Below are positions 1-52,772 of a stretch of 64,000 bases of DNA, piece by piece. Under the pieces are notes generated by a model, which did no database searches, was not told the origin of the DNA, and worked only from the letters and a program-made list of their open reading frames with translations. The DNA comes from a virus: IMG/VR virus record IMGVR_UViG_3300042308_001511, positions 62,001 to 126,000 of that record, one strand, 5' to 3'. The position numbers were made by a program, and so were the translations under genes. Within the stretch, counting starts at the first letter, position 1; each line of letters starts with the position of its first letter.

Positions 1-170
1 CCATCCCACGATTTGTAGTCTGGGTGTCTTTGTGGATCATTCTCTTCACACGTTACATATTTCATAGGATTCTCCCAGTCGTAGTATTTTAGTTTTATTT
101 CTCCAGATTTGTCTACGTAGCTGGCTACCAGTTTTTTTGTATGTGTTAGGTATTGTGTCTCTATAAGCAT
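1..170 (-). CDS. DNA polymerase, B family (gp43-like), N-terminal fragment
   Basis: An ATG at 170 (minus strand) opens a frame that runs off the left edge, giving 56 residues. The peptide has the layout of the T4 gp43 N-terminus: a short strand, then Y-V-D-K-S-G, then a segment ending in N-P-M-K-Y followed by C-E-E-N-D-P and S-W-D-G. T4 gp43 has an equivalent Y-I-D-E-N-G, then P-T-M and C-K-E-E. The exonuclease and polymerase motifs lie outside the window, so the call rests on N-terminal resemblance alone. It would be the replicative polymerase and fits the other T4-like replication genes here (UvsX, gp32). The 51 bases upstream separate it from the preceding small gene. Confidence 0.55.
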   Translation of the reverse strand, partial: MLIETQYLTHTKKLVASYVDKSGEIKLKYYDWENPMKYVTCEENDPQRHPDYKSWD

Positions 171-221
171 CTAATTGTGTATTTGTTGTTGTTTATATTT
201 TTGACTTTAACTATGTTTATG

Positions 222-734
222 TTAGAAGTCACAGTCGTAGTAATCCAATATTCCACCATCACTCTTTACGAATATTAGTTCGTCGCGTCTTACAAGTTGA
301 TAATCATAATGCCTTCCTAATTTGAACAGCGTTCTTATGAAAGGTATTCCTTCACCTTCGTTAACTTGTTTTTCTTCTATCATTAGACAAAGTATTTTTC
401 TGTCTTCCTCAGGATTGTAATTAACTACTTCATCTTCATGATCTCTTTCGAGTCCTTTTTTACCATATGTTATGAATGTTGATTCAAGTCTTTCACCACT
501 AGGTGTATACTCTATCCATACGTTGTCACCTATTTTTATATTGACATCTTCATCCTTTAAATAAACCCTTGTCCAGAAGTATACTTTCTCAGGTGTTACT
601 TCTACCTGTATTTCACTTACATCGTCACTCAAATCGGTGGTATCTACATCCTGTAGTTGTTCTCTTACAAAGTCGTAAAGAGATATTGGATCTCCAGACC
701 CAATAATGTATTCCTTTTCAGTACTAGTTTCCAT
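222..734 (-). CDS. hypothetical acidic phage protein
   Basis: 170 residues, acidic, with no recognised domain and no membrane segment. Near residues 20-30 it has Y-D-F-V-R-E-Q-L-Q-D-V-D, which resembles F-V-R-V-Q-L-Q-D-I-D in the protein at 11408-11935. The two may share a small alpha/beta module, but this is inferred from one short match. Its start overlaps the end of the preceding gene by 11 bases, so it belongs to the minus-strand operon that leads into the DNA polymerase. Confidence 0.7.
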   Translation of the reverse strand: METSTEKEYIIGSGDPISLYDFVREQLQDVDTTDLSDDVSEIQVEVTPEKVYFWTRVYLKDEDVNIKIGDNVWIEYTPSGERLESTFITYGKKGLERDHEDEVVNYNPEEDRKILCLMIEEKQVNEGEGIPFIRTLFKLGRHYDYQLVRRDELIFVKSDGGILDYYDCDF

Positions 735-1008
735 TTTTTTCGTTTGTTTTTTTATATTCTAACCAAGACTCCAAACTTTCGTAGTCTCTTGATTTACCCG
801 CATCAAATGCTGCATTCAATTCTTTATAATTGTATTTTGGTATCGTCTTTGGTATTTCATAATTGTGGTTTCCATTCGACACAAAAGCTTGAAATAGTTT
901 CATCTCCTCATTATATGGTCCATATTTTTCCTCGTTACGGTTGTTTATTTCGATTACGATTTGGTGTGAAGGATTGTTAGGGTCAAGACCCTCGTTCAAT
1001 TTGCTCAT
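724..1008 (-). CDS. hypothetical protein with short LNE-G leader
   Basis: 94 residues, charged, soluble, function unknown. It begins M-S-K-L-N-E-G, a minimal form of the [F/L]-x-E-[A/G/S] end seen in the longer N-terminal leaders elsewhere in the window, so it could be a truncated member of that set or a chance match. Start and stop overlap the neighbours (4 bases with the upstream gene, 11 with the downstream gene), typical of translational coupling. Confidence 0.7.
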   Translation of the reverse strand: MSKLNEGLDPNNPSHQIVIEINNRNEEKYGPYNEEMKLFQAFVSNGNHNYEIPKTIPKYNYKELNAAFDAGKSRDYESLESWLEYKKTNEKNGN

Positions 1009-1571
1009 ATTATCTCGTTTATTTTTTTGTTTCTTACATATGCCTTAGTCCACTCTTCAAGACTCAACACACCGAAGTCTGGATCCTCCACGTTGTGCTC
1101 ACTACGTACAGGTGATCTAGGCAGCAAAGTAGCATACCTATTTTCCTGGTGTCGTATGTATTTGTCATAGTTTATACAATAACCTTTGTCGGTATTGTTG
1201 TTTTTGTCAGTATCCAATAAAAACTCTAAAACAAATACATCACACGGAATACTCCTAATAAGACGTACATACTCTACAAACGGATAGTCATCTATCAGAT
1301 TGTGTATCATAAGACCTTCAACAAATACAAAAGTGTTAGGTTCCTTCTCTACGAGTTCACGGACTAATGTCAATCTTTTTGAGTCCTCAACTATGTCGGT
1401 TGAAAGAGTGAATTTCCACGTGAACTTCGAGTCAGGATATGGCATAACCTTCTGAACTTCTCTATGTGTGAGAAGAATAGATTGGTAGCCAGAGGTTTCA
1501 AGTCTCTTAGTCATCTCGATAAAAAAATAGGTCTGACTATTTGTGTCAAGCTTTATTAGTGTGTTCGGCAT
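1005..1571 (-). CDS. hypothetical protein, kinase-like layout without P-loop
   Basis: 188 residues. Alternating hydrophobic strands (F-V-F-V-E-G near residue 80, C-D-V-F-V-L-E-F near 110) suggest an alpha/beta NTPase-like fold, but there is no G-x-x-G-x-G-K loop, so no kinase activity can be claimed. The C-terminus ends R-N-K-K-I-N-E-I-I, which matches a terminal pattern shared with several other small proteins in the window. The gene is the second in the minus-strand operon after the glycosylase, with a 32-base gap. Confidence 0.65.
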   Translation of the reverse strand: MPNTLIKLDTNSQTYFFIEMTKRLETSGYQSILLTHREVQKVMPYPDSKFTWKFTLSTDIVEDSKRLTLVRELVEKEPNTFVFVEGLMIHNLIDDYPFVEYVRLIRSIPCDVFVLEFLLDTDKNNNTDKGYCINYDKYIRHQENRYATLLPRSPVRSEHNVEDPDFGVLSLEEWTKAYVRNKKINEII

Positions 1572-1603
1572 GACTATTATAAAGAGTAATCAACGGTAAG
1601 TTT

Positions 1604-2389
1604 TTAGTAGGGACAATACGGAATCCACTTTTCTTCAAACCAGAAAGTTCTTCCGGTGCTATCCTTTACCCCAACTCCTTTTTGGTAGAATACCCACTCA
1701 GAAAAGTCTTTTACATCACCACCGTTAGGATTATGCCAGTCTCTGAGTTGACCTCCATTATATTTGTATGCTTGTAATGGAATATCACAACACATATCGA
1801 GTATGTCTGGTCTTTTGTTTATAACATCTCTGGCTTTATCGAACGGATTTTCACCTAAGTAATAAAGTATAGTCGAACGAAGATAGTTGCCAATTCCATT
1901 AAAGTATTTCTGATCCAACAACGCCTCACAGATTGGTTTGTCGAATACCTTTTTGTGTAGGTTATTTAGTACATTTTCTTTAAAAACATCAAATTCTTTA
2001 GTCGGATCGGGACCTCTTTTTGTCGCAAATCCACCTACTTTATATTTAGGACCCATATAAGATCCATAAAGAAGTAATGAATATCCATCATCTGTATCGA
2101 GTCGGAAACGAACGAACCTGGTATCGTTCCACTTATCGGTAGTAACGAAAGCCCAGTTACCGGACATACCCATAAAAACGTGTACGTTTATCGATTTGTT
2201 CTCACTGTGTAGTCCTATTATAAGTTCTTTACCGAATGATTCCGCACTAACTATAAAGTCACCTTCTATGATGTTTGATTGTGTTGGTATATTACCTTTG
2301 GTAACGTCATATACCGTAGTGTATTTTCGTTTTTGAGACTTCGAGTTAATGAAGTCTGACATAATTTTCAATTCTGCTAATTCTGGCAT
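1604..2389 (-). CDS. Fpg/Nei-family DNA glycosylase with NEIL1-like zincless finger
   Basis: 261 residues, normal family length. The mature N-terminus would be Pro2-Glu3 (the catalytic imine-forming proline and the following glutamate), and Lys54 sits in G-K-E-L-I-I-G-L, as in Fpg/Nei. The helix-two-turn-helix is at about 150-178, with D-Q-K-Y-F-N-G-I-G-N-Y-L-R as its core. The C-terminus lacks the four zinc cysteines; residues 234-251 instead read F-Y-Q-K-G-V-G then G-R-T-F-W-F with Arg247, like the zincless finger of NEIL1. The enzyme should excise oxidised bases and cut the backbone by beta/delta elimination. The neighbouring ligase-like gene supports a base-excision-repair role. Confidence 0.88.
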   Translation of the reverse strand: MPELAELKIMSDFINSKSQKRKYTTVYDVTKGNIPTQSNIIEGDFIVSAESFGKELIIGLHSENKSINVHVFMGMSGNWAFVTTDKWNDTRFVRFRLDTDDGYSLLLYGSYMGPKYKVGGFATKRGPDPTKEFDVFKENVLNNLHKKVFDKPICEALLDQKYFNGIGNYLRSTILYYLGENPFDKARDVINKRPDILDMCCDIPLQAYKYNGGQLRDWHNPNGGDVKDFSEWVFYQKGVGVKDSTGRTFWFEEKWIPYCPY

Positions 2390-2433
2390 GAAATAATCTA
2401 TTAGATTATTTATATACTATAATTAGAATCTGT

Positions 2434-3069
2434 TTAGAACTTATAGTTTTTTGTAGGTTTTCTACACTTCACTTGACTTTTTATATTGTTTAGCTCGGTG
2501 TTTCCAATCTCTAACCTTGCATTTTTTCTTTTTAGTACCAACCCTTCAACCATATCTATTTTAGTTATTTCATCATACTTATCTTTGAATTTATTAAGGT
2601 ATGATTTAACCCGGTATACATTTTCTGATACTGAGTAAAGGTATTCGTGTTCTGATGAATTTACACCAAACATTTCGTCAAGTATGTTAGATCTTTGTTC
2701 AAACGTTTTTGTTATTAGGTAGTCACCATCATTTACGAGTATATCGAATATAACCAGTTTGTGATTGAATGTTTTTCCAGTTCCGTCTCTTTTTGATTTA
2801 TTCATATACTCTCCGTTTATTACGGTCCAACCACCAGTGCCTTTATACAATTTTAGTATTTCTTCACTAGGTATCTCGAATTTCGTAAGAGGTTGTGAGT
2901 GTCTATTCATAACCTTTATATTCTTACCATCTGTAAATATTAAACAATTTGAACCATCCAATTTAGGTTGTCCAAACATTGTGTTGTTATCATATGAGTT
3001 CAAATCCAAAGAAGGTATTGCATTCTTCGGTCTTGGAGGATAGATGTATCTATATACTGGATATTTCAT
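2434..3069 (-). CDS. minimal ATP-dependent DNA/RNA ligase-like nucleotidyltransferase
   Basis: 211 residues. Motif I is K36-L-D-G-S-N with the adenylated lysine at 36, motif III is N-G-E-Y-M around Glu87, motif IV is E-G-L-V-L-K at 175-180, and motif V is Q-V-K-C-R-K near 199-204. The protein ends just after motif V, so the OB-fold domain of full ligases is absent. It could seal nicks in DNA next to the glycosylase or act on RNA; the sequence does not decide. A TACATTTG element at 3084-3091 lies 14 bases before the start. Confidence 0.8.
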   Translation of the reverse strand: MKYPVYRYIYPPRPKNAIPSLDLNSYDNNTMFGQPKLDGSNCLIFTDGKNIKVMNRHSQPLTKFEIPSEEILKLYKGTGGWTVINGEYMNKSKRDGTGKTFNHKLVIFDILVNDGDYLITKTFEQRSNILDEMFGVNSSEHEYLYSVSENVYRVKSYLNKFKDKYDEITKIDMVEGLVLKRKNARLEIGNTELNNIKSQVKCRKPTKNYKF

Positions 3070-31801: not shown

Positions 31802-33922
31802 ATGGATAAAAATATGCAAAAAGAAAACGAGTATATCAAACGCCAACACGAGGTGAGGGCCGCGATAGAAGACGATGACGATGACGATAAACCTTTTGGT
31901 TCATCTTCGTCCAAAAAACCAGATTCTAAGTCTAAGACTCCAGTGCTTGATACTTATAGCCGAGATCTTACAAAGATGGCAGAAGAAGGTAAATTAGACC
32001 CAATCGTAGGTCGTGAGAAAGAGATTGAGAGAGTTTCTCAAATACTTTCAAGAAGAAAGAAAAACAATCCTATTCTAATTGGTGAACCGGGTGTTGGTAA
32101 GTCATCTGTAGCAGAAGGTCTTGCACTTCGAATTGTTCAGAGGAAAGTTTCCAGAATACTCTTTAATAAAAGAGTGGTTATGTTGGACCTTGCTTCGATG
32201 GTAGCTGGGACAAAATATCGTGGTCAGTTCGAAGAAAGAATTAAAGCACTTATGGGTGAGGTTGAGAAGAACCCTGATGTTATTCTTTTTATTGATGAAA
32301 TACACACTATGATTGGTGCTGGTGGTGCCTCTGGATCTATGGATGCGAGTAATATGTTCAAACCTGCATTATCGAGAGGTGAGATTCAAATTATTGGTGC
32401 TACAACACTTGATGAATACCGTAAACACATTGAGAAGGATGGTGCATTAGAGAGAAGGTTTCAAAAAGTAATGATTGAACCTGCTAGTCCAGAAGAGACA
32501 ATTGAAATCATCGGTAACATTAAAGACAAATATGAGTCGCACCACAATGTTAATTATACAGAGGCCGCAATAAAGGCTTGTGTTGATCTTACATCAAGGT
32601 ATATTACTGATAGGTTCCTTCCTGATAAAGCTATTGATGCACTTGACGAGGCAGGATCCAGAGTACACATATCTAATATTGTTGTTCCTAAGGAGATTAC
32701 TGATATTGAGAAACAGATATTTGACATCAAAGATAAAAAACACGATGTAATTAGATCTCAGAAGTATGAAGAAGCTGCAAAACTTAGAGACGTTGAACGT
32801 AAGTTGAATGAGGCACTTGATAAAGCGAGAAAAGAGTGGGAGTCTGAATCTGAGAAGAATAGACAGACTGTTACTGAAGACAACGTTGCAGAGGTTGTTT
32901 CAATGATGACTGGAATTCCACTTCAAAAAGTGGGTGAAAAGGAGAATGAGAGACTTTCTAGGATGTATTCTGAAATTGCTGGTAAAGTTGTTGGTCAGGA
33001 TGAGGCTGTAAGAAAAGTGGTTCGTGCTATACAAAGAGGTCGAGTTGGAATGAAAGACGCTAACAAACCTGTGTTCAGTGGTATGTTGATTGGTAACTCA
33101 GGTGTTGGTAAAACAGAATTAGCTAAACAAATTGCTAAGTATTTATTTGACTCTGAGGATTCTATGATTAGATTAGATATGTCTGAATATATGGATAAGA
33201 TATCTATGACTAAAATACAGGGATCTGCACCAGGATACGTTGGGTATGAAGATGCGAATATTCTTGATAGAATTAGAAGAAAACCTTATTCTGTTGTCTT
33301 ATTTGATGAGATTGAAAAGGCGCACCCAGAAGTATTCAACATATTTTTACAGATGCTTGACGATGGACATGTTACAGACTCACACGGAAGAAAAGTAAGT
33401 TTCAAAAATTGTATCATACTTATGACTTCCAACGTAGGAACTAGACAAGTCAAAGATTTTGGAACTGGTGTTGGTTTCTCTACAAAAAACAGAGAATCGA
33501 TGAAAGAAGATGAAATCAAATCTATTCTTGAGAAAGAATTGAAAAATAAATTCGCACCTGAGTTTATAAACAGACTTGATGACATCATCTACTTCAAAGA
33601 TCTTGGTAAGGGTGAGATAATGAAGATTGTTGATTTAGAACTTACTAAAACTATCAAGAGAGCATCTGATATAGGATTTCCTATTGAACTCACAGAAACA
33701 CTCAAAAACCATTTGGTTGAGGTTGGATATGATCCTAAGTATGGTGCTAGACCACTTAAGAGAGCAATTCAAAGATGGGTTGATGACGTTATAACAGACT
33801 TCATAATAGAGACAAACCCTGCAGAGGGAACTAATCTATACCTTGATTATGACTCTGAGAAGGAAGAGACTATAATAAAGTCTGAAAAACCTAAGAAGAA
33901 AAGGAGTAAAAAATCTAACTAA
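31802..33922 (+). CDS. ClpC-like AAA+ unfoldase lacking the N-domain
   Basis: 706 residues. The first AAA+ module has Walker A G-E-P-G-V-G-K-S at 94-101 and Walker B F-I-D-E at about 163-166. A short middle with a UVR-like E-E-A-A-K-L-R-D at 323-330 identifies the ClpC branch, and the second module has Walker A G-N-S-G-V-G-K-T at 431-438 and D-E-I-E-K-A-H-P at 502-509. The loop V-G-F at 557-559 occupies the position of the ClpP-docking loop of ClpC. The paired Clp-N repeats (about 140 residues) are missing and replaced by an acidic, serine-rich leader. It probably unfolds substrates for the host ClpP peptidase, or acts alone as a disaggregase. Confidence 0.9.
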   Translation: MDKNMQKENEYIKRQHEVRAAIEDDDDDDKPFGSSSSKKPDSKSKTPVLDTYSRDLTKMAEEGKLDPIVGREKEIERVSQILSRRKKNNPILIGEPGVGKSSVAEGLALRIVQRKVSRILFNKRVVMLDLASMVAGTKYRGQFEERIKALMGEVEKNPDVILFIDEIHTMIGAGGASGSMDASNMFKPALSRGEIQIIGATTLDEYRKHIEKDGALERRFQKVMIEPASPEETIEIIGNIKDKYESHHNVNYTEAAIKACVDLTSRYITDRFLPDKAIDALDEAGSRVHISNIVVPKEITDIEKQIFDIKDKKHDVIRSQKYEEAAKLRDVERKLNEALDKARKEWESESEKNRQTVTEDNVAEVVSMMTGIPLQKVGEKENERLSRMYSEIAGKVVGQDEAVRKVVRAIQRGRVGMKDANKPVFSGMLIGNSGVGKTELAKQIAKYLFDSEDSMIRLDMSEYMDKISMTKIQGSAPGYVGYEDANILDRIRRKPYSVVLFDEIEKAHPEVFNIFLQMLDDGHVTDSHGRKVSFKNCIILMTSNVGTRQVKDFGTGVGFSTKNRESMKEDEIKSILEKELKNKFAPEFINRLDDIIYFKDLGKGEIMKIVDLELTKTIKRASDIGFPIELTETLKNHLVEVGYDPKYGARPLKRAIQRWVDDVITDFIIETNPAEGTNLYLDYDSEKEETIIKSEKPKKKRSKKSN

Positions 33923-42612: not shown

Positions 42613-44565
42613 ATGAGAATTGTATACATAACACCACACCTTTCCACAGGAGGAATGCCAGAATACCTTAGGAGAAAAGTTGAACTACTAAAAGATGACC
42701 ATGATGTGTGGGTGGTCGAGAAAAGTTTTGAACCTGCGTATAGATCGATAAGAGATAAAATAGAGTCTCTTATTGGTGAAAGACTTGTATCTCTAAATGG
42801 TAATAACGAAATTTTACTAAAACTAATTTCCGAGGTAAACCCAGATGTTATACACTTTGAGGAGTTATCCGATTATCACTTTGAACCGGCACTTCTTGAC
42901 CTTATATACACACCTGATCGTGAATATTTAATATTTGATACACTACACGATTCTTCGATAGATTATACCGAGAAAAGGTACATACCTGACAAAATGTTAG
43001 TTGTTAGTCCTTGGCAGGTTAAGAACTTCTTACCGCTCGGTATACCGGTTGAGATGTTAGAACATGAAATTTTAGCAGGTGAAAGAAATCGTGGTTTACT
43101 TTCTGAACTAGGTTTAGATCCTTCCCGTAAGCATATACTTCAGGTTGGTTTATTCTCACGTAGAAAGAATCAATCTGAGACAATAGAATTAGCCAAACTT
43201 ATGCCTGGTGTAGATTTTCACTTTGTTGGAAATCAAACAGACAATTACAGACAATATTGGGAACCTTTGTTGAATAATCTTCCATCTAATTGTAAGATAT
43301 GGGGTGAGAGATCGGATGCTGAAAAATTCTACTCTTGTATGGATTGTGTAATATTTCCATCGAGAGGTGAGTATGGTGACCGGGAGACTAACCCTTTAGT
43401 AATAAGGGAAGCAATGGCTTGGAATGTTCCACTTTTCTTACGTGATAGAGACTTCTATATGGGTATGTATTCGGAGTCTTCAATGGTTAGATTTATGCAC
43501 GAAGAAGTAGAAAAAAATGTGATAGAACTCACAGATTTTATAAAATTAGAAAATAAAGAAATTATGAAAACAGAAAACTTAACAGATGAATTCTTCAAAA
43601 GAAAACTTTTTGAAATATCATTTTCATCGGAAACTAACCAAATAGACTTCAAATATTTAGAACAACCGACACTGGAATGTATGGTTTGTATAAGAGACAT
43701 CGATACAGAGGTGCCAATTTATTCTTTTGATTCTAAATTTGAATCTGGTTCTACCGTTTGGTGTGTTCCTATACCAAAACCATACTACGACTTCCAGGAC
43801 AATCCTAACTTTGGTGGTTTTCTATATGACTTCTACATCGATGGTGAGAGAAAGTATGTTCAGACAACTAGAATAAAACCGGCGTCGATAATCAAAGAAA
43901 AATTCAGAGTCGAATCGTTTGAACCAATATTCGTTAACTACGAACAGTTCTTCACCGACAAAATTTATGACAATTTCCTATTAGGTGGAGAGATAGGAAC
44001 AGTATTAGACATCGGTGCTAACATAGGTCTATTCACAGAACTTGCTATTCGTAAAGGTGCATCTGAGGTTGTTTCAGTAGAGATAAACGAAAATGCAATT
44101 GGTATATTCGAAGATATTCACTCGGGTAGAGAAAATGTAAGACTAGTTAAGAAGGCAGTATACGACAAAACTGGTGAAATGGAAATACACACAGATCCTA
44201 ACAACTCATTAGTGGGTTCGGTTTTTCACGATCACACTGCTGGTTTATCAGAGACAGTTATTGTTCCATCAATAAGTATCGATGATCTTATGGCTGAGTA
44301 TAATTTGGAAGATATTGGTCTTGTTAAGATAGATGTAGAAGGATCAGAATATGCCATATTTGATGGTATGTCTGACGAAACACTTGACAAACTGAATAAT
44401 ATAATACTTGAATTCCACGATAACTTTGGAGGTAGACTTAGAGACTCAATAACAAAAAGATTAGATGGTAAATTTGATTACAAAATATACCAGGACGATT
44501 GTAAAAATCCTGCAAGTGAGTGGGAAGAAAGAGGTACAATATTCGCTAAAAAACATATTAAATAA
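42613..44565 (+). CDS. fusion of GT4-like glycosyltransferase and FkbM methyltransferase
   Basis: 650 residues. Residues 1-300 are a GT4-like GT-B enzyme: T-P-H-L-S-T-G-G-M-P-E-Y near the N-terminus, L-Q-V-G-L-F-S-R-R-K-N-Q-S at about 176-188 and a downstream N-P-L-V-I-R-E-A-M-A-W nucleotide-sugar motif. A linker follows, then at about 440-650 an FkbM-type methyltransferase: D-I-G-A-N-I-G at about 466-472, E-I-N-E as the SAM ribose-binding acid, and V-K-I-D-V-E-G-S-E at about 571-579. It may add a sugar and then O-methylate it. Confidence 0.8.
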   Translation: MRIVYITPHLSTGGMPEYLRRKVELLKDDHDVWVVEKSFEPAYRSIRDKIESLIGERLVSLNGNNEILLKLISEVNPDVIHFEELSDYHFEPALLDLIYTPDREYLIFDTLHDSSIDYTEKRYIPDKMLVVSPWQVKNFLPLGIPVEMLEHEILAGERNRGLLSELGLDPSRKHILQVGLFSRRKNQSETIELAKLMPGVDFHFVGNQTDNYRQYWEPLLNNLPSNCKIWGERSDAEKFYSCMDCVIFPSRGEYGDRETNPLVIREAMAWNVPLFLRDRDFYMGMYSESSMVRFMHEEVEKNVIELTDFIKLENKEIMKTENLTDEFFKRKLFEISFSSETNQIDFKYLEQPTLECMVCIRDIDTEVPIYSFDSKFESGSTVWCVPIPKPYYDFQDNPNFGGFLYDFYIDGERKYVQTTRIKPASIIKEKFRVESFEPIFVNYEQFFTDKIYDNFLLGGEIGTVLDIGANIGLFTELAIRKGASEVVSVEINENAIGIFEDIHSGRENVRLVKKAVYDKTGEMEIHTDPNNSLVGSVFHDHTAGLSETVIVPSISIDDLMAEYNLEDIGLVKIDVEGSEYAIFDGMSDETLDKLNNIILEFHDNFGGRLRDSITKRLDGKFDYKIYQDDCKNPASEWEERGTIFAKKHIK

Positions 44566-44577
44566 TTCGAAAAGGTA

Positions 44578-45252
44578 ATGATTGTAGGTAATGGACTTAT
44601 TGCAAAATCTTTCTCTATTTTTAGAGAGGATAGTAATATTATTATTTTCGCATCTGGTGTTTCTAGCTCTTTGTGTGATGACCCTTTTGAATTCAAAAGG
44701 GAGATAGATATGTTATGTGGATTGAACCAAAATTGTAGGATTATTTACTTTAGTACTGCTTCTTTGTCGGATGGTAGTTTTGAAAGTCCTTATATACGAC
44801 ATAAAATTGAAATGGAACGTATTTTAATGGATAGATTCAAAAATTATTTGATACTTAGATTACCCACGGTTGTCGGTAGTGGTGGAAATTCAACAAACCT
44901 TTTCAATCATTTTATAAATTGTATATCAAATGATTTGTGTATAAAGGTTAATGTGAATCAATATAGATCATTAATCGATGCAGATGACCTTTATACATTA
45001 ACAAAAGGTATTATACTTTCTGATTTCTTAGGTATTGTTGATATATCATTGGATAACCAGTCTACTGTTGGTGAAATTGTTGCTGATATAGAGAGTGTTT
45101 TAGGAATAAATTTCAGAAAAGAGCTTATAAATTCTCATCAAAACCACCCGATATCCAATCAACTATTAAAGGATTTGATACGTGAAGACTTCTATAAAAT
45201 AGACAGACCGGACTATAATATAAGGTTGATAAAAAAATATCAAAATAAATGA
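44578..45252 (+). CDS. extended SDR sugar-nucleotide epimerase/reductase-like protein
   Basis: 224 residues, shorter than the usual 300. G-N-G-L-I-A-K-S (4-11) replaces the canonical G-x-x-G-x-x-G. Y-F-S-T-A-S-L-S-D then Y-I-R-H-K gives the Ser/Tyr-x-x-x-Lys catalytic set, and L-R-L-P-T-V-V-G-S-G-G-N is the substrate loop. It could change a nucleotide sugar for the neighbouring transferases. Short N-terminus and altered glycine motif make cofactor choice uncertain. Confidence 0.68.
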   Translation: MIVGNGLIAKSFSIFREDSNIIIFASGVSSSLCDDPFEFKREIDMLCGLNQNCRIIYFSTASLSDGSFESPYIRHKIEMERILMDRFKNYLILRLPTVVGSGGNSTNLFNHFINCISNDLCIKVNVNQYRSLIDADDLYTLTKGIILSDFLGIVDISLDNQSTVGEIVADIESVLGINFRKELINSHQNHPISNQLLKDLIREDFYKIDRPDYNIRLIKKYQNK

Positions 45253-45956
45253 AACTCAGTGTTATAATACCGTGTTACAACTTCGAATCATATCTTGATA
45301 AGTGTATACAGAGTGTTCTCGAACAGGAAACAAATTTCTATTACGAAATAATAGTTGGTGATGACTGTTCTTCGGATTCATCAGCAACAATACTTTCGAA
45401 TTATATCGGTCGTATATCATACTATGTGAATCAAAATAACTTTGGTTATGGTGAAAATACGGTAAAGTTAATAAGTCTATGTAGAGGCGAATACATAACT
45501 TATCTCGATGGAGATGATTTCCTTACAGATAATCAAAAGTTCCAAAAACAGATTGACTTTTTAGACGCAAATCCAGAATATGTAATGCATAGTACTGGTT
45601 GTTTCTATGCAACACCAGAGGGAGAATTTTCTGGAACTATAATAACACCTGTGATTGAGGAGCCAACAACAGAAGAACTTTTATCGACTAATTACGTAGG
45701 ATTTGGAAGAACTTTCCGAAATATTAAAAATATTTCGTTTGAGTGGATGAAGGATATTAAGTTTCATGATTGGGCCATTAATTTCGAACTATCTTTGTTA
45801 GGAAAGATAAGGTGTGAGAATTTTGTATCTGGTGGATATAGGATATCCGGTAATGGCATAATAACTAGTCTCGATGATGGTGATATCTATAATCATAATC
45901 AAATTTGTATGGAAAAACTAGCTTACAGACTAAACGATTTTAAAAATAAGAATTGA
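45249..45956 (+). CDS. GT2 family glycosyltransferase
   Basis: 235 residues. Classic GT2: S-V-I-I-P-C-Y-N at 4-11, V-G-D-D-C-S-S-D-S-S at about 36-45 and Y-L-D-G-D-D-F at about 83-89. The catalytic C-terminal region holds H-D-W-A-I-N-F-E. Four-base overlap with the SDR gene. No membrane anchor. Confidence 0.85.
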   Translation: MKLSVIIPCYNFESYLDKCIQSVLEQETNFYYEIIVGDDCSSDSSATILSNYIGRISYYVNQNNFGYGENTVKLISLCRGEYITYLDGDDFLTDNQKFQKQIDFLDANPEYVMHSTGCFYATPEGEFSGTIITPVIEEPTTEELLSTNYVGFGRTFRNIKNISFEWMKDIKFHDWAINFELSLLGKIRCENFVSGGYRISGNGIITSLDDGDIYNHNQICMEKLAYRLNDFKNKN

Positions 45957-45960
45957 TAAT

Positions 45961-48276
45961 ATGAATGTTCAAAAGATAATACAAGTAACTCCGGGTGTAA
46001 TGCAAATACCACCAACAGGATGGGGTGCGGTAGAAAAAATTATATGGGAGTATACTAAATCTCTTCGTTCGGTTGGATATGACGTGGAAATACTTTATAC
46101 AGATGATGTTTCTAATAGTGATAATCAAATTGTACATGTTCATATGGCAAATCTTGCGAATATTCTAAATGAAAGAGGAATTGAATATGTTTTTTCACTA
46201 CACGACCACCACGTAGAACATTTTGGTAAAGACTCTCAATGTTATAAAGATAACTATGATGCTATCAAAAATTCGAAAATTACATTCGTTCACTCACCAC
46301 ATCTTATTGAGTATTTCGATAATATGTCTAACATAGTTTATTTACAACATGGTGTGAACAACGAAGACTACATATTTTTAGATCGTTCGGAGATGGTTCG
46401 TAGGTCTCCTGGTATTGTTATGATGGCTAATAACGGACTCGGTGGTGATTCACTTTATGATAGGAAAGGATTTTTGATTGGAATTGATGCTGCCAATAGG
46501 TTACAACTTCCTATTACTATAATATGTCCAAGTAGTAACCGTGAATTCTTTGAATATCACAAAGTATCTTATGATAAACTTCAGATTATTTACGATTTGA
46601 ATTACGAAGATTCAATTAAAGAGCTTTCTAAACATACATTATTCTTAAATCCTTCGATTATAGAAGCAGGTCATCCTAACCTAACGGTTGTTGAGTCTTT
46701 ATCGTGTGGAATACCTGTTGTTGGTACATCTTATGTAGATGTCCCGGGACTTATTAGATGTAGTAGAGATTTAGAGGATGTAGTTTTGAAAATTGATGAG
46801 TGTCTATTTAAATATGATGGTTTGGTTGAATCTATAAAACAAACTAGAGAATCTTTGTCGTGGAATATTGTTGTCACTAAAATGTTACAATATTATAAAC
46901 GTGTTTATGAAATTTCGGAAAAATCACAATTAGAATGGCAATACAAAAACACAAAAATACTTAGACTACCTAAACAGGAAAAATCAGGAATTCAGGTTGA
47001 TTTCAAAAACGGAAGAACATTTGTTAAAACATCACTACACTCTCAGGGACTCAGTGCAGTTTTCCGTGACAACAAAACCAACTCTATAATATTTGAAACT
47101 ACCATAGGTAAAACTCCGGGTAATTGGGCGTATATGTATACACCGGTTGACCGATTTGTGGATTGGGAGGTTTCTGTTAACTTTGGAACAATTCCTTTAC
47201 ACGTAGAGCGTATGGATCTAAAAAGAAAGAAGGTTCTTGTCACTGGAAATCCTGACATATCATCTTTAGTTGAATTCAGTCTAAAAACTGGTGCATTTTT
47301 GACTCTAAGAGATTTTAAAAACGGATACTTCTGTTACGACCCTGATGCTAATTCGGATGATTTCTATACTGTATTTAATGAACAACAGATTAAAGACTAC
47401 TTCACAATTTGTCCTAGAGTAGTGGATAAGTTACTTCTAAAATCAGGATCTGCGGCACTGGGTGATACAATAGCATTTATACCATATGCACAGAAGTGGG
47501 CAGCCAGTAAAGGTATTGTTGCCGATGTAGATTGTGCTTGGTCTGATATATTTAAATCTACAGAGTATCCAAACCTTTGTTTCGTTGGAAGGGATGTTTC
47601 GATAGAGAACTATTCAAATATTTGGAGATTTGAATATCTATTTGATCGTCCATTACAGAAAGGATACTCGGATCAGTTCGGTTTAGAATATAAAGAGATT
47701 CCTGCAATGATAAGGAAATCAGGTAAAGATAATCCTGTTAATGAAAGATATGTTTGTCTGGGTGTTCAGACTACAACACAGTGTAAGTATTGGAATCGTG
47801 TTGGTGGATGGGATAAACTTTGTGAGATGTTGGAGTCTGAAGGTATAAAAGTTGTTTCGTTGGATAAATATGAAGTTTTTGGAATTGATGGTTATTGGAA
47901 TAGTCTTCCTGAAAAATCCGACAAAAAAGTAGGTATGGAATTCTCCGAGGTTATAAGATATATCGAACATTGTGATGCTTTCATAGGTGTTAGTAGTGGA
48001 TTGGGATGGTTAGCATATGGTCTCGATAAACAAGTGGTTATGATATCCGGAACAACTGTAAAAAATAATGAATTTACTATAAACAACCACCGTGTGTCAC
48101 CACCGGATAATGTTTGTAATGGTTGTTTCAACAAACCACACCTTTATAATTTTGATGCAGGAAACTGGTTATGGTGCCCGGTCTATTCCGGAACTGATAA
48201 AAGGTTTGAGTGTACAACTTCTATTTCACCAGAGATGGTATTCGAGGCGGTTATGGCGGCACTTGGTGAGTCTTAA
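45961..48276 (+). CDS. fusion of GT4-like transferase and TibC/BAHT-like O-heptosyltransferase
   Basis: 771 residues. The N-terminal ~330 are a GT4-like enzyme (P-P-T-G-W-G-A-V-E-K near 19-28; N-P-S-I-I-E-A-G-H-P-N-L-T-V-V-E-S-L at about 230-247). The C-terminal ~300 match the BAHT/TibC family that O-heptosylates autotransporters. Seen are Y-V-C-L-G-V-Q-T-T-T-Q-C-K-Y-W, G-V-S-S-G-L-G-W-L and four cysteines at about 719, 722, 739 and 751 in C-N-G-C-F, W-C-P and F-E-C-T-T-S-I-S, which in that family bind iron. It may glycosylate serines in phage fibres or surface proteins. Confidence 0.8.
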   Translation: MNVQKIIQVTPGVMQIPPTGWGAVEKIIWEYTKSLRSVGYDVEILYTDDVSNSDNQIVHVHMANLANILNERGIEYVFSLHDHHVEHFGKDSQCYKDNYDAIKNSKITFVHSPHLIEYFDNMSNIVYLQHGVNNEDYIFLDRSEMVRRSPGIVMMANNGLGGDSLYDRKGFLIGIDAANRLQLPITIICPSSNREFFEYHKVSYDKLQIIYDLNYEDSIKELSKHTLFLNPSIIEAGHPNLTVVESLSCGIPVVGTSYVDVPGLIRCSRDLEDVVLKIDECLFKYDGLVESIKQTRESLSWNIVVTKMLQYYKRVYEISEKSQLEWQYKNTKILRLPKQEKSGIQVDFKNGRTFVKTSLHSQGLSAVFRDNKTNSIIFETTIGKTPGNWAYMYTPVDRFVDWEVSVNFGTIPLHVERMDLKRKKVLVTGNPDISSLVEFSLKTGAFLTLRDFKNGYFCYDPDANSDDFYTVFNEQQIKDYFTICPRVVDKLLLKSGSAALGDTIAFIPYAQKWAASKGIVADVDCAWSDIFKSTEYPNLCFVGRDVSIENYSNIWRFEYLFDRPLQKGYSDQFGLEYKEIPAMIRKSGKDNPVNERYVCLGVQTTTQCKYWNRVGGWDKLCEMLESEGIKVVSLDKYEVFGIDGYWNSLPEKSDKKVGMEFSEVIRYIEHCDAFIGVSSGLGWLAYGLDKQVVMISGTTVKNNEFTINNHRVSPPDNVCNGCFNKPHLYNFDAGNWLWCPVYSGTDKRFECTTSISPEMVFEAVMAALGES

Positions 48277-52355: not shown

Positions 52356-52772
52356 TTATTTAACTTTGTTATGTCTTTCAATAACACGTCCTCTTAGTTC
52401 TGTTGTAGAAAATGAGTGTCTACGCTCATTGTAGTGTGTATCTATATGAGTGAGTTCCTTTCCTGTGAAATCTTTTTCCCTATACTCCTCACCTACGACT
52501 CTTATATTTATTGGATAAGAAAGAAGTATATCCATAAGTTCTTTCTCAGTCTGGTATATTACAATCTCATCTACGTATTTACAAGCGTCTAATTGTACGA
52601 ATCTCTCAAAAACTGATTGTATAGGTCGGTTCTTCTCAGGTCTATCTATAGTAGGGTCTGTTTGGAGTCCTACTATTAGGTAATCACATACACTCTTCGA
52701 CTCTTTTAACATCATTATGTGTCCTGCGTGAAACAGGTCAAAACACGAACAGGTGAATCCAACTTTTTTCAT
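52356..52772 (-). CDS. cytidylyltransferase (TagD/RfaE-like)
   Basis: 138 residues. HxGH motif H-A-G-H at 15-18 after C-F-D-L-F, and S-F-S-T-T-E-L-R near the C-terminus, the I-S-T-T-type nucleotide-binding loop. It should activate a phosphorylated alcohol or sugar with CTP (glycerol-3-phosphate or heptose-1-phosphate type). The heptosyltransferase-like gene at 45961 makes a role in supplying activated heptose or glycerol attractive, though that is inference. Confidence 0.82.
   Translation of the reverse strand: MKKVGFTCSCFDLFHAGHIMMLKESKSVCDYLIVGLQTDPTIDRPEKNRPIQSVFERFVQLDACKYVDEIVIYQTEKELMDILLSYPINIRVVGEEYREKDFTGKELTHIDTHYNERRHSFSTTELRGRVIERHNKVK

Follow-up and report, generated by a model that had tools for sequence, protein, structure and literature searches.

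The open reading frame (ORF) at positions 45961..48276 (+ strand) of the window, a stretch of 64,000 nucleotides that corresponds to bases 62001-126000 of the IMG/VR virus record IMGVR_UViG_3300042308_001511 (344,083 bases), starts with ATG and encodes a 771-residue protein in which a GT4-fold glycosyltransferase is fused to a TibC-like one. Our reading, to which we give a probability of slightly under 0.6, is that this protein is a two-domain O-glycosyltransferase: the TibC-like half would start, and the GT4 half would extend, a glycan on the collagen-like fibre of the phage itself. More broadly, we find a phage branch of the TibC family that, as judged from gene content, is tied to collagen-like fibres with Ser/Thr-only triplets. 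It is possible, at somewhat less than even odds, that a widespread phage system exists whose iron-finger transferase, TibC-like and in many cases joined to a GT4 enzyme, densely O-glycosylates and stabilises these proline-poor fibres.

The TibC-like catalytic domain, of the GT-B type, spans residues 492-764 (47434..48252, +), as delineated by family model, PDB matches and fold. The NCBIfam model TIGR04414 (Aah/TibC) matches it with an E value of 3.9e-58; the curated cut-off of 200 bits is narrowly missed, with 197.2 bits for the whole protein and 189 bits in the genome search, and is cleared by relatives (223-321 bits). In a phmmer search of the PDB, TibC (4RB4/4RAP) provides the sole hits (E 1.9e-31). 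The catalytic region is modelled with a confidence mostly above 85, and comparison of its predicted fold places 21 TibC chains on top (best E 1.7e-24), before WaaC and its GT9 relatives, whose E values are about 1e-8.

The roles of the catalytic and donor-binding residues of TibC and of its four iron cysteines are described in PMC4358343. Upon alignment, and all on the + strand, the catalytic base D110 corresponds to D502 (47464..47466), the donor-phosphate residues T226 and K230 to T605 and K609 (47773..47787), and W305, which contacts the heptose O4, to W683 (48007..48009). The iron finger C339, C342, C358, C370 is found as C719, C722, C739, C751 (48115..48213), so that the four cysteines mentioned in an earlier note on this sequence are indeed all present. 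That note also singled out a Q-C-K-Y-W segment. The segment exists (Q607-C-K609-Y-W611) and holds the donor-phosphate lysine, but its cysteine, C608 (A229 in TibC), is distinct from the iron ligands. TibC P300 is replaced by S678, AAH likewise having a serine, and the dodecamer thumb, a hairpin in the predicted model, counts 28 residues versus 29 in TibC, with a G-Y tip instead of F-V. R286, which contacts the adenine of ADP-heptose in TibC (PMC4358343), is replaced by V664 (47950..47952). From alignment and model, the protein most likely behaves as a TibC-type protein O-glycosyltransferase.

The N-terminal half, residues 1-335 (45961..46965, +), adopts a predicted GT4 fold and conserves the motifs DRKGF and E235-x9-E245. 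Foldseek analysis of the full-length model retrieves the GT4 enzymes MshA, SenB, BshA and PimA with E values of about 1e-11, SenB reaching a TM-score of 0.76 (by target). These enzymes share its fold, whereas the E-x9-E spacing departs from the E-x7-E customary in GT4 enzymes, and the Pfam gathering scores are missed: 19.6 of 27 bits for PF13692 (Glyco_trans_1_4, E 0.0011) and 14.3 of 26.4 bits for PF00534. Between the two halves, residues 338-430 (46972..47250, +) probably form the beta-barrel found at the N-terminus of TibC. The sequence match is weak, at 10.1 bits over residues 338-428 with a hidden Markov model (HMM) built from other phage members and 9.8 bits to positions 7-88 of TIGR04414, and the model has strands at 344-427. 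The barrel is followed by an insertion of ~60 residues (430-491; 47248..47433, +) modelled with low confidence, which is common to the fusions of contigs L010 and L011 and missing from most relatives. To note, phrog_33732 (PHROGs) covers no more than roughly the first 70 residues of the fusion, and several Synechococcus phages match its residues 1-83 only.

The ORF is confirmed as genuine, since the presence of the same fusion in other contigs excludes a frame or assembly artefact. Its GT4 domain is 37-56% identical to domains of LR756501 and of 21 other viral contigs, fused to a TibC-like enzyme in 18 of the latter and separate in 3; in these three (L056, L057 and L078) the GT4 is a gene of its own directly upstream of the TibC-like gene, an arrangement that speaks for joint action of the two halves. 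A GT4 fusion like that of the window protein is found in L010, L011, the 735-kb phage LR756501 and others. In LR756501 it is 34% identical over 81% of the query, the gene upstream opens with a GT4 domain that shares 38% identity with its counterpart in the window gene at 42613, and a collagen-like, Ser/Thr-rich gene adjoins the pair. Other family members carry different fused partners, namely glycosyltransferase (GT2) or methyltransferase domains. The earlier description of a GT4 domain fused to a TibC-like enzyme is thus borne out by the TIGR04414, PDB and Foldseek matches together with this recurrence, and the two domains may plausibly make a disaccharide.

A candidate acceptor is encoded in the same genome. 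A DNA pattern for Gly-[ST]-[ST] yields 390 matches in the record, as compared to 0 for the reversed control pattern, and the matches listed all fall in one ORF of 2,709 amino acids (G000:C1:23299-31425, - strand), a predicted tail fibre with matches to Pfam Collagen (E 2e-162) and to tail-fibre families of PHROGs. It comprises 429 Gly-X-Y triplets in five blocks, 394 of them made purely of Gly and Ser/Thr; 219 read GSS, 167 GTS, 17 GTR and 6 GST. The Y position is Ser in 388 triplets, and there are only 5 prolines. The glycosylation of a phage fibre, one of the two targets put forward in the earlier note, is the leading idea. A gene of GT9-like appearance next to the fibre (G000:20406-21362) returned no family match and was discarded, and an SmpB (tmRNA-binding protein)-like sequence, recognised by eye, lies at G000:C1:18226-18663 (L135:226-663). 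In Microcystis phage Mel-JY01, positions 1-3052 (L003) hold a + strand frame of 1,016 amino acids of collagen-like Ser/Thr triplets, where the deposited annotation has, on the - strand, a hypothetical gene (739-2298); the annotated strand may be wrong.

LR756501 and the enzyme loci first prompted the idea of a fibre acceptor, and further contig sets served to test it, the collection scans for Ser/Thr collagen being performed with codon-specific patterns. An ORF with at least 4 consecutive triplets occurs in 25 of 54 non-redundant enzyme loci, versus 0 of 35 UvsX control loci. A slightly different count finds a G-[ST]-[ST] ORF within ~6 kb of the enzyme in 28/54 loci, at 500 bp or less in 11 and at 1.5 kb or less in 20. 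Among 35 contigs picked by UvsX similarity alone, the enzyme is present in 6, the repeat in 7 and both in 6: all six enzyme-positive contigs carry the repeat, as against 1/29 of the enzyme-negative ones (Fisher p 4e-6), and a contig of 464 kb in this set has neither. TIGR04414 is found, always above cut-off, in 17/28 contigs with the GTSGSSGTS pattern versus 0/22 with the GPQGPAGPQG pattern (p 2e-6; 7e-4 when the comparison is limited to contigs of at least 54 kb). The reciprocal test on short loci gives a modest result, less clear than that on whole contigs, with the enzyme in 9/120 Ser/Thr-collagen and 0/120 Pro-collagen loci. Models of other glycosyltransferases and of FkbM, built from few sequences, are rarely found near Ser/Thr collagen. 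Enzyme-carrying phages hence strongly tend to carry very large collagen-like tail fibres that consist nearly entirely of Gly, Ser and Thr, which suggests a sugar coating of the fibre.

These data bear on another explanation, in which the fusion remodels, in the course of infection, a glycan or protein of the host surface, to block superinfection for instance, the proximity to fibres reflecting merely a host-recognition region rich in glycosyltransferases. Phage host-recognition clusters with tail fibres do often hold glycosyltransferases, for which such a role has been proposed (PMC7029224), and GT2, epimerase and FkbM genes accompany the window gene in its run. The link is however specific to Ser/Thr collagen, the enzyme being absent from both Pro-collagen sets, and the TibC relatives target serines of proteins rather than lipid-linked glycans (PMC4358343), making this explanation unlikely in our view.

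Several observations weigh against fibre glycosylation. Enzyme and fibre are ~77 kb apart in the window's genome; phage LR756504 has the enzyme without a Ser/Thr repeat; conversely, the enzyme is missing from 11/28 Ser/Thr-collagen contigs, and in the UvsX set one contig carries the repeat and no enzyme. The contigs are mostly fragments, often broken within repeats, so that neighbouring genes can be seen or missed together, and phages with Ser/Thr and with Pro collagen may differ in host or habitat. The enzyme might act on another virion protein, such as a different fibre or a capsid decoration, its co-occurrence with Ser/Thr collagen resulting from a shared host group or habitat. LR756504 would fit this idea, and glycosylation of other virion proteins is reported for mycobacteriophages (as cited in PMC12619734). 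We nevertheless hold it for very improbable: enzyme and repeat track each other closely within a single viral clade, that of the UvsX set, and many copies of the enzyme directly adjoin the repeat.

A closer parallel to the bacterial enzymes would be a true TibC/AAH-type O-heptosyltransferase, transferring heptose from ADP-heptose onto a protein of the virion or the host that has autotransporter-like repeats. The TIGR04414 match, the conserved counterparts of D110, T226, K230, W305 and the four cysteines, and the predicted thumb hairpin of nearly TibC length all speak for it, as do GmhA-like and HddA-like genes near 219-220 kb of the genome and the HldE-C-like gene at 52356. Nonetheless, the two former score far under the cut-offs, the search for heptose-pathway genes of the phage found neither GmhB nor a PfkB kinase, and GmhA occurs in 0/6 enzyme-positive UvsX-set contigs. 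The nucleotidyltransferase-like gene (52356..52772, -), seen in the earlier note as a cytidylyltransferase that could supply an activated precursor, has as its best families HldE domain II (TIGR02199, 72 of 181.5 bits) and glycerol-3-phosphate cytidylyltransferase (TIGR01518, 57 of 165 bits), both far below their cut-offs, which weakens this proposal. The strand-loop-strand acceptor repeats that the same note recommended searching for (TIGR04415) are absent from the 344-kb record, which may be incomplete, and from three related phage records. Finally, the loss of R286 argues against carrying the ADP specificity over from TibC. As the protein falls narrowly below the TIGR04414 cut-off and lacks both the adenine contact and a recognisable autotransporter repeat in its genome, it is not to be classed as an autotransporter heptosyltransferase; heptose is not claimed as the donor, the heptosyltransferase label of the earlier note loses ground, and true O-heptosyl transfer has, in our estimation, a rather small chance of being correct.

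Some phages may really supply heptose: the 636-kb phage LR756504 encodes a GmhA over the curated cut-off (251 bits; LR756504.1:430182-430640), ~27 kb from an unfused TibC-like gene. The GmhA-like and HddA-like genes of the window's genome belong to a second sugar cluster outside the window (G000:C1:215624-224830; L458:7624-16830), some members of which were named by eye from their translations. It comprises GT10 fucosyltransferase-like, FkbM-type methyltransferase-like and GT4-like genes, the HddA-like GHMP kinase, the GmhA-like SIS protein, a methyltransferase, two NAD epimerase/dehydratases, a GT2-like gene and a dihydrofolate-reductase-like gene.

On sequence criteria, TibC-like enzymes are widespread in environmental phages. 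With the window protein as lone query, a search of IMG/VR retrieved no relatives, and an alignment-based scan then returned at least 581 matching stretches, 80 of which were retained as loci for analysis. The phage relatives, which include LR756501, Mel-JY01 and LR756504 besides hundreds of contigs from IMG/VR, are only ~28-45% identical to the window protein; they share its catalytic domain and cysteines, many of them having a shortened thumb. The loci were retrieved with patterns from LGD, FEC and nearby segments, so that conservation at those sites is partly a product of selection, which does not apply to the conservation of K230, W238 and W305. Likewise, the four cysteines are present in 84/84 viral members, the extraction pattern having required the motif, yet all 80 loci had such an ORF. 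R286 is retained in 17/84 viral members, as compared to 79/80 bacterial ones, and a full-length thumb is found in 75/80 bacterial members, most viral thumbs being shorter. In the tree, the window protein belongs to a clade of nine members, all viral (support 100/99), while a separate clade (100/100) unites TibC with 33 other members from bacteria; the long branch of the window protein makes its exact position less sure. TibC-like genes near G-[ST]-[ST] ORFs are also seen in four contigs assigned to bacteria, L400, L445 and the gammaproteobacterial metagenome-assembled contigs L422 and L433. The tree groups the last two with a viral contig; a phage origin or mis-binning is possible.

The fusion closes a tight run of + strand genes (42613, 44578, 45249, then 45961), with gaps or overlaps of ~12 bases or fewer between them. 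The first encodes a fusion of GT4 and FkbM methyltransferase domains (42613..44565), the second an NAD-dependent epimerase-like protein (44578..45252; PF01370, E 7e-5) and the third a GT2 glycosyltransferase (45249..45956; PF00535, E 2e-29). The linker of the first was considered as a second TibC barrel, a possibility that found no support in HMM comparison, and a search for relatives of the GT2 neighbour yielded none usable as a control. Elsewhere in the window, a 706-residue protein (31802-33919) strongly matches PHROG 4871, an ATP-dependent protease (E 8e-231).

We infer fibre O-glycosylation, with its activity, acceptor, sugar, order of transfers and biological effect, along the following lines. 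The TibC-like half, a GT9-type GT-B domain with an iron finger, would place the first sugar on Ser, perhaps Thr, of the Gly-Ser-Ser and Gly-Thr-Ser repeats, at many sites per fibre chain, either ahead of virion assembly or in the course of it. The second sugar would come from the fused GT4-fold half, and the adjacent genes for GT2, epimerase and FkbM methyltransferase may lengthen the glycan or cap it. The resulting coat may stabilise or hydrate the proline-poor triple helix and alter recognition of the fibre.

Known systems offer partial likenesses. The TibC/AAH enzymes (BAHT; 4RAP, 4RB4; TIGR04414) share the GT-B domain, the D110/T226/K230/W305 set, the four-Cys iron finger and the N-terminal beta-barrel; they modify Ser and not Thr, TibC hyperglycosylating the repeated serines of its partner (PMC4358343). 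Unlike them, the window protein has a GT4 fusion, the ~60-residue insertion, a Val for R286 and a G-Y thumb tip, stands outside the bacterial TibC clade and belongs to a genome without detected autotransporter repeats. Clostridioides difficile SgtA, whose gene lies immediately upstream of bclA3, attaches sugar to Thr of collagen repeats and to Ser as well (PMC7157674). The pairing of a glycosyltransferase gene with a collagen-like gene and the Gly-X-Y Thr/Ser acceptor are similar, whereas SgtA, from a non-phage system, transfers GlcNAc from UDP-GlcNAc to a spore-coat protein with GPT rather than GSS/GTS repeats. Glycosylation of BclA is thought to aid the network of hydration in proteins of this kind (PMC8968730). 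The Mimivirus collagen glycosyltransferase (PMC9546862) is a virus-encoded enzyme acting on collagen-like proteins, as proposed here, but in a eukaryotic virus, on hydroxylysine and with another type of enzyme. Our literature search, which covered papers other than subscription papers and preprints, found no report of a TibC-like enzyme paired with a collagen-like phage fibre.

Known from bacterial adhesins, TibC-type enzymes here make up a large phage family with features of its own and a different probable acceptor. If correct, the proposed fibre glycosylation would caution against the automatic naming of such proteins as "autotransporter O-heptosyltransferase". It would also give a function to many "glycosyltransferase" genes of aquatic phages, for which DNA or the host surface is at present the guessed target, and would account for the stability of (GSS/GTS)n triple helices nearly devoid of proline.
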